From NCBI GenBank assembly GCA_963930775.1, contig OZ005697.1, positions 2,728,001 to 2,792,000 of the forward strand: a stretch of 64,000 bases of DNA. The letters run 5' to 3'. Every line of letters starts with the position of its first letter. Position 1 is the first letter of the stretch. The notes under the pieces were generated by a model. It did no database searches. It was given only the letters and a program-made list of their open reading frames with translations, and was not told the DNA's origin. Of this stretch, positions 3,916-60,576 are shown piece by piece. The position numbers were made by a program, and so were the translations under genes. This DNA comes from Cliona cf. orientalis. Lineage: Eukaryota > Porifera > Demospongiae > Clionaida > Clionaidae.

Positions 3916-4047
3916 GTCTACTCTGTTCGTGTTCGTGTCAACACGGATCATGTGCTGGGTCTACTGCTGGAGAAGGAGCAGTTTAACATCGCTAGAAAGT
4001 ATGCTGAGCTGGTCAATTCAACCAAAAGCCAAATATCCATCAAAGAG
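3916..4047 (+). CDS. SPG11: SPG11 exon a (first visible of the C-terminal block)
   Basis: Acceptor AATAG before GTC; donor GAG|gtactc; 44 codons, phase 0 to 0. It encodes a helical segment ([17 protein letters not shown], then [13 protein letters not shown] end). This resembles the vertebrate stretch ending in ARRVAELAEL. Phase 0 at its start fits the phase-0 end of the exon at 60452-60576. Confidence 0.75.
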
Positions 4048-58300: not shown

Positions 58301-60576
58301 GCTAAGTGGTATTGTCCCTAATTAGACTAATGAGTTGTTAAATTTCCCTTATGGTCAAACCCATTGGCAAGTGATTGGAGACTGCCAATTTGATGTTGGT
58401 TGATAGTGTACTTCCTGGGATGTAGCGTGCCCCTATTGGTACATGGTGTACATGTGTGCACATGCATGTACAATTTCATGCCTGTGTGTACGTGTATGTA
58501 CATGTGTGTATGTACATGTACATATGCATATACCACATGGATGTACACATGTCATGTATAATTACTCACAATGTCCTATATGCATACTTGTTGTTAGTTG
58601 CCTAGCAACCAAAATTTTTATACGCAATTTGCTGGCTATGGGGCCGGGAAGGAGTTGGGTCATCATAAAGTAGGCCAATGATGAACAGAGGTCAACTACC
58701 AACAAAATAGTTATCTGCCAGTACGTATCAGAGGTATATGCATACACTCACACACACACACGTACCTACGTACCCAGGCATCCAGCGTTGGCTACGGTGG
58801 TGCCGTGGGAGACCTCCTCTGGGTCCAGCAGGTGGCCAGCATCATGGCCTCTCACATGCTCATGGTTTGCCCCACCCCTTTTGAGCGCTCTCACCTCCTG
58901 CGACTACTGGCGGAGACCGGCTTCGGTAGAGGAAGGCAGTTCAAGTGCCATGGTAACTATTATTGAATTTACATGCATGCATATGACATAATATTGTATG
59001 TTTTTCAACTAGCAATGTAGATTTCTCTGGTGCTTTGTAACATGGTCATTACTTGAATTGATTATCTGTTTGCATTAATTTGTTCCTTGCATGCAAGTGT
59101 ATAATTACCAATAAGTTATAGTTGCTAGACCTTATTGGGGGTGCATCTTCACAGTGCCAAGGTGCCTTACACAGCATGCTGAAATTTAGCTATTGAAGGT
59201 GCATAAATCAAAAATCCCTTGTGGTTCTGTGTATAATTATAGTAACTGTTACATAATATTATTGTATCAGCTAGTCTAGTTTATCACTGAATCACTGCTC
59301 CAACCCCCAGTCTGCACTCTTGCCACTCCCTTATTCCATTCAACCCCCTTTCTCCCCAGCCACCCCCTCTCCCCACCCCCTCATTAGCTCCTGCGGTACA
59401 CAACCCTCAATAGCATAAACAATTAGTGGAGTATGTGGAGACCCTCTGTTGCCATGGTAACTGGGCTAGGTGGGATTCTTACAGTACCTTTGTCAAAACA
59501 TCTAGCATGTTGATCCAAAATTTAATTCATGGGATATTGCATAATTACATGTATGTCATTTGAGATGGCTCATTGGAATTGGAATGGAGATATAGAGACA
59601 GCATGCTTGTGTTTGTCCAAGGTAGTAAATTTTAGCCATTGTGTAGCCACAATACCCCTGAGGGCCACTGTAGTGGTGAATATCTTCATCTCATTAATTT
59701 TGTGTCAACTGTTGTGATAATGTGAGTATACTAATCCAGACAAACATAAACACATTCCACAGACAATTGTTCATTGCAAGTATTCAATTAGTAGCACCAT
59801 TGAAGATTGTTGGTTTAGCTTATTAATTCCTGAAAACATGTTTACTGTATAAATTCCAGTTGTTAATTATTCAGTTATGTACCAGTATTTCATTCTCCAG
59901 AATAGCTATTATGTCCGCCATAAATCTTATATCAACCATCCTAGACTAGCTTATACCAAGGGCTTATCTAGCCGCTAAGCAACATGCTTACGTGGCTAGA
60001 GAAGCGCTTGCTTATACTGATAATTAATTATCATGGCCTAATTAAGCAGATAATTCTATCTAAAGCCCAGAGGAATATTTTTTCTATCAAAATGCCAAAT
60101 ATCTCACTTCACTGTTTTTTCCCCCTGCAATACAGTGAATGAGCAAAAATACATTCCATTATTGAGTACCAGTTATCAGGGTTCTCCCCACACTGGTCTG
60201 TCAGTAAACTACAACCAGTTCCTAACTCAAATTTACCACTACTCACCTAGTACAAAACCTCATGGTCATTATGCATGCTTTGGGCACCACTAATCTCATA
60301 GTACAACCTAGGCATGCAGTCACATAATTATGATCAATCCCAGATTATCTGCCTATGCTATGCATAGCCCTACTGAGTTGGCTATCGTGTAGCAGACAAT
60401 GGAAGGCTGATAGCATTATATTATGTCTACTTATTTTTTTTGTGGCTACAGTGTTGGACTTTCATAATCTTCATCAGATGAGCCTTGTGCTGAGTGAGGC
60501 TGGTCTGGCCAGCGATGCTGCATTCACTGTCAAAGAACACTTCTCAACCACACCAGGGCTCAGCTCCCTCCCAGAG
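52237..60576 (+). CDS. SPG11: Spatacsin (SPG11) middle exons, six, located downstream of the C-terminal block
   Basis: Exons 52237-52332 (or to 52301), 52462-52510, 53457-53598, 58141-58222, 58778-58952 and 60452-60576. They encode CMCVWLIASLG, MSWSPFKLGLLL, FYEEFVLRSNYEECGNYL, DLLWVQQVASIMASHML and NLHQMSLVLSEAGLASDAAF. In order these resemble the vertebrate segments CLCVWIITS, LSVIWRTLL, MYELCMFFRNYKEAEAKL, MWLEDQVCFLLKLML and VKKLCILCQIL. In vertebrate spatacsin this stretch lies directly before the part encoded here at 3916. No exon here duplicates one at 3.9-40.9 kb. The first junction is off-phase unless the earlier donor at 52302 is used. The roughly 1,500 residues expected before it are not found between 43 and 52 kb. 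Confidence 0.75.
52462..52510 (+). CDS. SPG11: SPG11 middle exon 2
   Basis: Acceptor CCATTCCAG, donor CAGCAG|gtaatt; 49 bases, phase 0 to 1. It encodes YLETYNVAEDKIRFSA; the split GAG codon is completed at 53457. The other two frames have stops. Confidence 0.6.
52511..53456 (+). other. SPG11 intron ending in a polypyrimidine microsatellite
   Basis: Intron of 946 bases; 53336-53450 is nearly pure C and T up to the acceptor CTACCTACAG. No other feature is seen. Confidence 0.5.
53457..53598 (+). CDS. SPG11: SPG11 middle exon 3
   Basis: 142 bases, phase 1 to 2, donor CCTCAG|gtaaga. It encodes LQWMSWSPFKLGLLLISA, then QALTYFDLHNPLLSFLR. This resembles the vertebrate LSVIWRTLL ... GFQLFFKDSPLLLV segment. 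Confidence 0.75.
54965..55267. mobile_element. Short non-autonomous element, CAGGGCTTCATTTAG ends, 5-bp target duplication
   Basis: CAGGGCTTCATTTAG at the left and CTAAATGAAGGCCTG at the right (one mismatch) are flanked by ATTTT on both sides (54960-54964, 55268-55272). G-runs and C-runs flank a unique core of about 170 bases. Same family as 50526-50887. Confidence 0.85.
56037..56750 (+). repeat. Diverged tandem duplication, period about 440
   Basis: AAGGTCTTGTCCCTA, GCTCAGATTTAATT, TTGTGAAGCAAGTATTTA, GATATACTGATAGTACAGAG and CATTTGGGACCT recur in order in 56037-56290 and 56478-56750. Confidence 0.85.
58141..58222 (+). CDS. SPG11: SPG11 middle exon 4
   Basis: Acceptor TTGGACAG, donor GACAAG|gtaagt; 82 bases, phase 2 to 0. 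It encodes FYEEFVLRSNYEECGNYL, then REFNLSIDK. This corresponds to the vertebrate MYELCMFFRNYKEAEAKLLEF segment. Confidence 0.85.
58778..58952 (+). CDS. SPG11: SPG11 middle exon 5
   Basis: Acceptor TACCCAG, donor CATG|gtaact; 175 bases, phase 0 to 1. It encodes DLLWVQQVASIMASHML, then ERSHLLRLLAETG. This corresponds to the vertebrate MWLEDQVCFLLKLML ... LGKLLQLFVE segment. Confidence 0.8.
58953..60451 (+). other. SPG11 intron, no feature seen
   Basis: Intron of 1.5 kb. No repeat family or gene is recognised. Confidence 0.4.
60452..60576 (+). CDS. SPG11: SPG11 middle exon 6 (last visible before the permutation break)
   Basis: Acceptor GTGGCTACAG, donor CCAGAG|gtatgt; 125 bases, phase 1 to 0. 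It encodes LHQMSLVLSEAGLASDAAF, then EHFSTTPGLSSLPE. It ends in phase 0 with an intact donor, so it expects a downstream phase-0 exon such as the one at 3916. Confidence 0.75.

Follow-up and report, generated by a model that had tools for sequence, protein, structure and literature searches.

Partial tandem duplication of the spatacsin gene in the sponge Cliona cf. orientalis and purifying selection on three of its 5'-truncated copies

Spatacsin (SPG11) is the partner of spastizin (SPG15) and AP-5 and, to our knowledge, is normally encoded by a single-copy gene. Partial tandem duplications are known to give truncated or re-promoted paralogues, and in Drosophila the mod(mdg4) and lola genes combine a common 5' part with numerous 3' parts on the same chromosome. 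Here, we analyze a 64,000-nucleotide stretch of the genome of the sponge Cliona cf. orientalis (contig OZ005697.1, here C9, 9,894,826 bases; positions 2,728,001-2,792,000, + strand; "the window"), which holds spatacsin exons in what appears to be a permuted order. In the searched genome of 216,785,154 bases in 149 contigs, the window proves to be a cut through a partial tandem duplication in which a segment of the gene is repeated five times head to tail along C9. We designate these five units U0 to U4 (approximately 2.63-3.05 Mb). We consider it very likely, on comparison of the units, that the array consists of one longer gene, U0, followed by four 5'-truncated copies, U1-U4, each of which would be a gene of its own.

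The comparison with described systems defines what is distinctive in this locus. U0 matches human spatacsin (PDB 8YAD_B, 2443 aa) in order from residue 1176 to 2383 and contains the Pfam domain Spatacsin_C (PF14649) above its curated cut-off of 25 bits. In contrast to SPG11, the C-terminal 39% of the sponge protein is present in five copies, with U1-U4 lacking the remainder. An intronic breakpoint, 5'-truncated copies and a possible new start are shared with other partial tandem duplications, but here there are five units of 83-100 kb, constraint in at least three truncated copies, and nested clusters of transporter genes. Like mod(mdg4) and lola, the locus has one 5' part and several 3' parts, but the reading frame across the shared junction is broken in U2-U4. 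A further likeness is to the GFP-spatacsin-Cter construct (human 1943-2443; Pierga et al. 2023, PMC10621996), a likewise C-terminal protein that binds UBR4 and includes Spatacsin_C and the part from exons 32-34. That protein is an experimental construct, whereas the sponge copies are genomic and longer, starting at human 1482.

Several searches place the five units on C9. A DNA query from window positions 3900-4300 found five main + strand places, at 2.649, 2.732 (the window), 2.823, 2.924 and 3.011 Mb, and all 25 genome-wide matches to Spatacsin_C lie on C9 in five clusters that follow the same order. The 5' exon set (human 1482 onward) also occurs at five places, approximately 2.630-2.639, 2.701-2.704, 2.780-2.789 (the window), 2.872-2.880 and 2.970-2.981 Mb; this search gave 24 matches, including one stray copy of exon 3 on the opposite strand at 2.944 Mb (C9:2,943,824-2,943,919, inside U3). 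The 3' exon search likewise gives five copies, and the two sets alternate 5'-3'-5'-3' along the contig. We read C9 continuously over 2,612,001-2,932,000 (320 kb) and, beyond this, outside the intervals 2,932,001-2,952,000, 2,961,001-2,970,350 and 2,970,601-2,977,000 and most of the sequence past 2,981,000. Self-comparison of 260 kb at the DNA level revealed long direct repeats, with U0, U1 and U2 spaced 83-91 kb apart. The copies are adjacent and direct and share introns and intergenic sequence, as is characteristic of tandem segmental duplication.

The front part of the gene is found only before U0. The region C9:2,612,762-2,625,961, upstream of U0, encodes spatacsin corresponding to human 1176-1477, and two genome searches with these exons found match places (two of two and four of four) only there. 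Homology between U0 and the other units starts in the intron between the last upstream exon and exon 1, at approximately C9:2,627,385, which corresponds to window position 49,951. Since the upstream exons occur before U0 only, U1-U4 are 5'-truncated, without the part before human residue ~1482, or roughly 60% of the protein. Colinear matches upstream of the C-terminal domain are present in every unit (human 1482-1629, 1677-2148 and 2160-2383), and those to 1176-1477 in U0 only. Lacking the N-terminal part (human 1-1480), U1-U4 are spatacsin-derived rather than spatacsin.

The array accounts for the order of exons in the window, which opens inside U1 and holds its 3' part (human 1677-2443) and then the 5' exons of U2 (human 1482-1629), with the rest of U2 past the right edge. 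A preliminary description of this DNA had assigned both exon sets to spatacsin in this order, and the human matches and Spatacsin_C confirm the assignment; both sets lie on the + strand. The joined exons at 52237-60576 match human 1482-1629 (E 6.3e-7), those at 3916-40886 match 1677-2047 plus 2072-2148 (E 2.7e-26) and 2160-2383 (E 1.9e-23), and Spatacsin_C exceeds its cut-off in open reading frames (ORFs) at 38036 (42 bits) and 39154 (52.5 bits). The segment that comes earlier in the protein does stand second in the window, and the junction noted as phase 0 to phase 0 is so: exon 60452-60576 closes, and exon 3916-4047 opens, in phase 0. Within the window no spatacsin exon is duplicated, as was also claimed; the one ORF present twice (at 18.8 and 20.4 kb) is part of a dispersed repeat that matches six other contigs and was not counted as an exon. 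By protein alignment the exons at 52-60 kb are spatacsin and not copies of those at 3.9-40.9 kb, the two points on which the description had staked its interpretation.

It had also advised looking for the missing exons outside the window, and they are there: a second 3' set follows 60576 from ~94,990, and another 5' set precedes 3916 at approximately -26.8 to -24.3 kb (minus signs and values above 64,000 continue the window numbering beyond its edges). Among the three explanations it offered, a tandem duplication with half-visible copies stands, with five direct units on one chromosome; a misjoin is at odds with the gap-free junctions, and trans-splicing is not needed. The two gene copies it expected turned out to be five, those after U0 lacking the N-terminal part. 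The permutation is thus apparent only, an ordinary window effect: the exon order looks permuted because the window captures the last exons of one copy, U1, and then the first exons of the next, U2. More generally, a 64-kb window that cuts a tandem array can make two half genes resemble one shuffled gene, and automatic annotation is likely to produce merged or split spatacsin models at this array.

The exons of the truncated copies are conserved. Our final model comprises 5 + 15 exons (206 + 782 codons), and 79 of the 100 possible exon instances (20 exons in five units) were retrieved: 20 in U0, 18 in U1, 20 in U2, 17 in U3 and 4 in U4. All 79 retain the AG acceptor, the GT donor where expected, and the frame; the sole indel is 8 bp in exon 1 and the sole stop is the terminal one. 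The 15 exons of the 3' part are conserved in U0, U2 and U3 (12 of 15 retrieved in U3), and the 5' exons recur in U0, U3, U4 and U1 (three of five in U1, the other two falling in an assembly gap). Synonymous and nonsynonymous differences, with the ratio of nonsynonymous to synonymous rates (dN/dS), were 54:3 (0.015) for U0-U1, 45:3 (0.019) for U0-U2, 53:4 (0.021) for U0-U3, 58:1 (0.005) for U1-U2, 53:4 (0.020) for U1-U3 and 51:3 (0.016) for U2-U3. At equal rates, ~197 nonsynonymous differences would be expected for U1-U2, where 1 was seen, and 175 for U2-U3, where 3 were seen; even with the intron rate as yardstick, ~90 would be expected for U1-U2. Changes private to one unit show the same pattern (18:2 in U0, 29:1 in U1, 16:0 in U2 and 21:2 in U3), summing to 66 synonymous and 3 nonsynonymous over U1-U3. 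As controls, shifted reading frames of the same exons gave dN/dS above 2, and intron pseudo-exons (20 draws each) gave means of 0.81 (0.50-1.30) and 0.66 (0.41-0.93). These results show that the coding frame in U1-U3 is under strong purifying selection. Neighboring genes in the same units are less conserved, with dN/dS of 0.195 and 0.102 for the amidohydrolase copies of U0 and U2 and 0.27-0.36 for POT transporter genes (six pairs computed, of 17 long ORFs found), and therefore the near absence of amino acid change is particular to the spatacsin exons.

The 8-bp indel bears on how the truncated copies may be expressed. Exon 1 of U0 reads D-A-S-M-V-D-C-M-C-V-W in continuation of an upstream exon that closes in phase 0 (...ILAACYE|gtgagt). 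U2, U3 and U4 carry eight extra bases between DAS and MVDC, such that a U0-like upstream junction into any of these three units runs into a stop after 14 codons. From the ATG at 52254 onward the frame remains intact, and over 26 codons U0 differs from U2, U3 or U4 by seven synonymous and no nonsynonymous changes. This is most simply read as a new start at this ATG or as a new first exon ending in phase 1. As no full-length gene would survive the insertion intact, U2-U4 probably descend from an ancestor that was already truncated, in which case the 51:3 differences between U2 and U3 would have arisen in truncated copies, unless exchange between units confuses this history. Together, the insertion and the ATG point to stand-alone C-terminal proteins of ~980 residues over trans-splicing.

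Four other explanations of the locus were weighed. One of them, a truly permuted gene in which trans-splicing or a circular RNA would connect 60576 with 3916, gains something from the compatible phases, but U2 holds its own phase-compatible equivalent of 3916 ~34 kb downstream of 60576, which is why ordinary splicing suffices; the exon at 3916 and this counterpart at ~94,990 differ at ~10 positions. We regard such a gene as barely credible. An assembly artefact, with haplotypes or repeats wrongly strung together such that the array or the window order is false, is also very improbable. It would be in keeping with a 200-bp gap between U0 and most of U1 and with the 81 haplotypic duplications removed in curation according to the assembly report. 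However, this gap (C9:2,696,092-2,696,291, outside the window) is the only run of N in the 320 kb read. To its right three units join in gap-free sequence, in the order U1-3', U2-5', U2-3', U3-5', U3-3', and to its left U0 already passes into the head of U1. Falsely duplicated haplotypes would be expected to join at contig ends or gaps, and the single gap lies within U1, the U1/U2/U3 junctions being gap-free. The units also vary in POT gene number and in insertions; U1, for example, has a hAT element at 26-28 kb, and U2 an inverted-repeat element at 46-47.7 kb.

The two remaining explanations accept the array and differ in what U1-U4 are. In one, a single N-terminal exon set would be spliced, in cis across long distances or in trans, to any of five alternative 3' halves. 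A single N-terminal part, five conserved C-terminal parts on one strand, and an intact acceptor on the first duplicated exon in U0, U2, U3 and U4 agree with this idea; it requires all 3' modules to be frame-compatible with the shared 5' exon, which the 8-bp insertion prevents in U2, U3 and U4, exon 1 of U1 being lost in the gap. Each unit also ends in a stop codon of its own, as observed for U0-U3, and we find alternative 3' halves quite improbable. In the other, U1-U4 would be recent, non-functional pseudogenes, and what looks like constraint would be a legacy of divergent alleles or of gene conversion from U0. This could explain their 5' truncation, the strong evidence for exchange among the units and the weaker constraint in U4, and the assembly report, with haplotypic duplications and a low k-mer completeness of one haplotype (60.5%), suggests very divergent haplotypes. 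Pseudogenes would be expected to have lost introns, splice sites or frame and to show dN/dS near 1, and no such decay was found among the retrieved exons, with U4 only partly tested, while a neighboring gene in the same units is broken. In addition, U2 and U3 differ by 51 synonymous and only 3 nonsynonymous changes although both share with U4 an insertion disruptive to a full-length gene; the 5' flank of U0 has diverged by 10% from that of U1-U3, and exon 1 of U0 shows seven synonymous and no nonsynonymous changes; and gene conversion does not selectively spare amino acid changes. Pseudogenes are therefore an unlikely explanation, though the least unlikely of the four.

The uneven divergence along the units indicates how exchange has shaped the array. 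Intron substitutions amount to 4.1% between U0 and U1 and 4.4% between U1 and U2, and the 3' part differs by ~4% in every comparison of units made. In the 5' flank, U0 is 10% different from U1-U3, which differ among themselves by only ~1%; in the 5' exon region the corresponding difference is 8-9%, compared to 3.3% for U2-U3; and U1 and U2 are 98.2% identical over window positions 56136-64000 (7.9 kb). This unevenness indicates that the array was reshuffled by unequal exchange or gene conversion after the first duplication.

Several points count against constrained, independent truncated genes. Gene conversion clearly mixes the units and blurs the history of each copy, and private changes were counted without outgroup polarization. 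Synonymous divergence among U0-U3 (0.07-0.11) is about twice the intron divergence (0.041-0.044). The first two exons of U1 sit in the 200-bp assembly gap. For U4, four exons (127-153 codons) gave weaker ratios against U0-U3 (11:3, 5:4, 5:4 and 7:3; dN/dS 0.07-0.22). The broken amidohydrolase copies still have dN/dS of 0.10-0.20, and low dN/dS by itself is no proof of current function. U0 is assumed to be complete, having been read from human 1176 onward, and the case for stand-alone genes is drawn from genomic sequence.

The features of the window are listed in the table. Among candidate exons, an ORF at 15044-15149 was dropped because an in-frame stop interrupts it in U0 and U2 and similar copies lie close by, and another at 18836-19051 because it is a dispersed repeat with no counterpart in U2; of the 54 matches in the 3' exon search, eight lie off C9, on contigs C2, C3, C5, C7, C10 and C16, and all eight fall in the query part 325-464 around this ORF. 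With both false exons included, dN/dS for the 5' and 3' parts together was 0.01-0.04, and with both removed 0.005-0.021. The ORF at 6086-6157 is conserved in U0 and U2 and was excluded as unproven. Choosing ORFs by third-position bias alone admitted many that are non-coding, because of the close similarity of the units. Long CT/GA-type tracts at 6.9-7.3, 23.4-23.6 and 36.7-37.1 kb yield long spurious open frames. A direct repeat (18683-19939 and 20217-21471, 95.9% identical) contains an ORF of a dispersed family found on at least six other contigs.

Table. Features of the 64,000-nucleotide window (window coordinates).
Feature	Position	Strand	Basis or remark
U1 spatacsin 3' part, 15 modelled exons	3916..40886	+	Human 1677-2443; phase-consistent splice sites, human match, Spatacsin_C
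U1 3' exons 1-8	3916-4047, 5524-5661, 6602-6832, 7174-7398, 8172-8288, 15647-15889, 23230-23367, 24040-24166	+	
U1 3' exons 9-15	36301-36443, 37235-37345, 38117-38291, 38643-38722, 38846-38992, 39181-39338, 40706-40886 (stop TGA)	+	
U2 spatacsin 5' part, 5 modelled exons	52237..60576	+	Human 1482-1629 and slightly past
U2 5' exons	52237-52332, 53457-53598, 58141-58222, 58778-58952, 60452-60576	+	
8-bp insertion in U2, U3, U4, not U0	52246..52253	+	Sequence comparison of units
Candidate start ATG (MVDCMCVWLIASLG...) of truncated copy	52254..52256	+	Suggested by kept downstream frame
Approximate left boundary of U2	49951		Start of homology to U0 intron (C9:2,627,385)
Amidohydrolase (Amidohydro_3) ORF, 426 aa open, end of U1 between both spatacsin parts	44090..45367	-	Pfam 181.5 bits
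POT/PTR2 transporter copy, U1 intron between 5' and 3' parts, interrupted (two overlapping frames)	1487..3171	+	
Intronless POT/PTR2 ORF (partial; 556 codons whole), U2 intron after exon 60452-60576	62594..64000	-	
hAT transposase ORF, 726 aa, U1 intron	26034..28214	-	Unmatched in U0 and U2 over stretch

Other genes also lie in the units. The amidohydrolase copies in U0 and U2 carry stops or frameshifts, but the copy in the window (U1) is open; its orientation is away from U2 spatacsin, making a shared promoter region possible. POT/PTR2 matches lie between the 5' and 3' exons, in one intron per unit, with at least 2, 7, 8, 7 and 6 in U0-U4, some of them interrupted. Twenty-six of the 30 matches in the units are on the opposite strand (C9:2,639,000-3,011,000, including window 1-3171 and 62594-64000). 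Further large PTR2 groups are present on C5 (3.2-3.9 Mb) and C4 (2.1-3.1 Mb). An intergenic inverted repeat before U2 (46036-46610 and 47148-47722; 575 bp, 99.65% identical) has a related stretch elsewhere near U3.

The duplicated segment runs from the intron before the exon corresponding to human 1482 to beyond both the gene's 3' end and the neighboring amidohydrolase gene. We propose that each truncated unit would now be a gene of its own. Transcription may start in retained intron sequence upstream of exon 52237 or in the region beside the divergently placed amidohydrolase gene. Translation of U2 would begin at ATG 52254, and splicing would proceed from 52332 through 60576 to the unit's own 3' exons from ~94,990. 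The predicted product of ~980 residues would be the last 39% of spatacsin.

Truncated yet constrained spatacsin copies in an array are unusual, and we found no earlier report of extra spatacsin copies in the literature searched, which is not proof of their absence. The study of mammalian spatacsin cited above (PMC10621996) states that the C-terminal region 1943-2443 binds UBR4 and that the part from exons 32-34 is required for the drop in AP5Z1 on overexpression. The truncated copies include the equivalent of this UBR4-binding, exons 32-34 region, and AP5Z1 (Pfam SPG48) has one match in the genome. We speculate that extra copies with the Spatacsin_C region would tune AP-5/spastizin at lysosomes without the N-terminal part. 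A tentative and rather less probable extension is a "mini-spatacsin" family, with an internal start, the Spatacsin_C/UBR4-binding side kept and the N-terminal part gone, that was tandem-amplified to shift the spastizin/AP-5 balance on lysosomes. Cliona cf. orientalis houses intracellular dinoflagellates, and the setting could be its lysosome-related symbiosome. If the truncated copies are expressed, they would represent a C-terminal module naturally split from spatacsin and kept under selection, and, if this is true, division of labor in a hereditary-spastic-paraplegia protein would be testable in a natural system.

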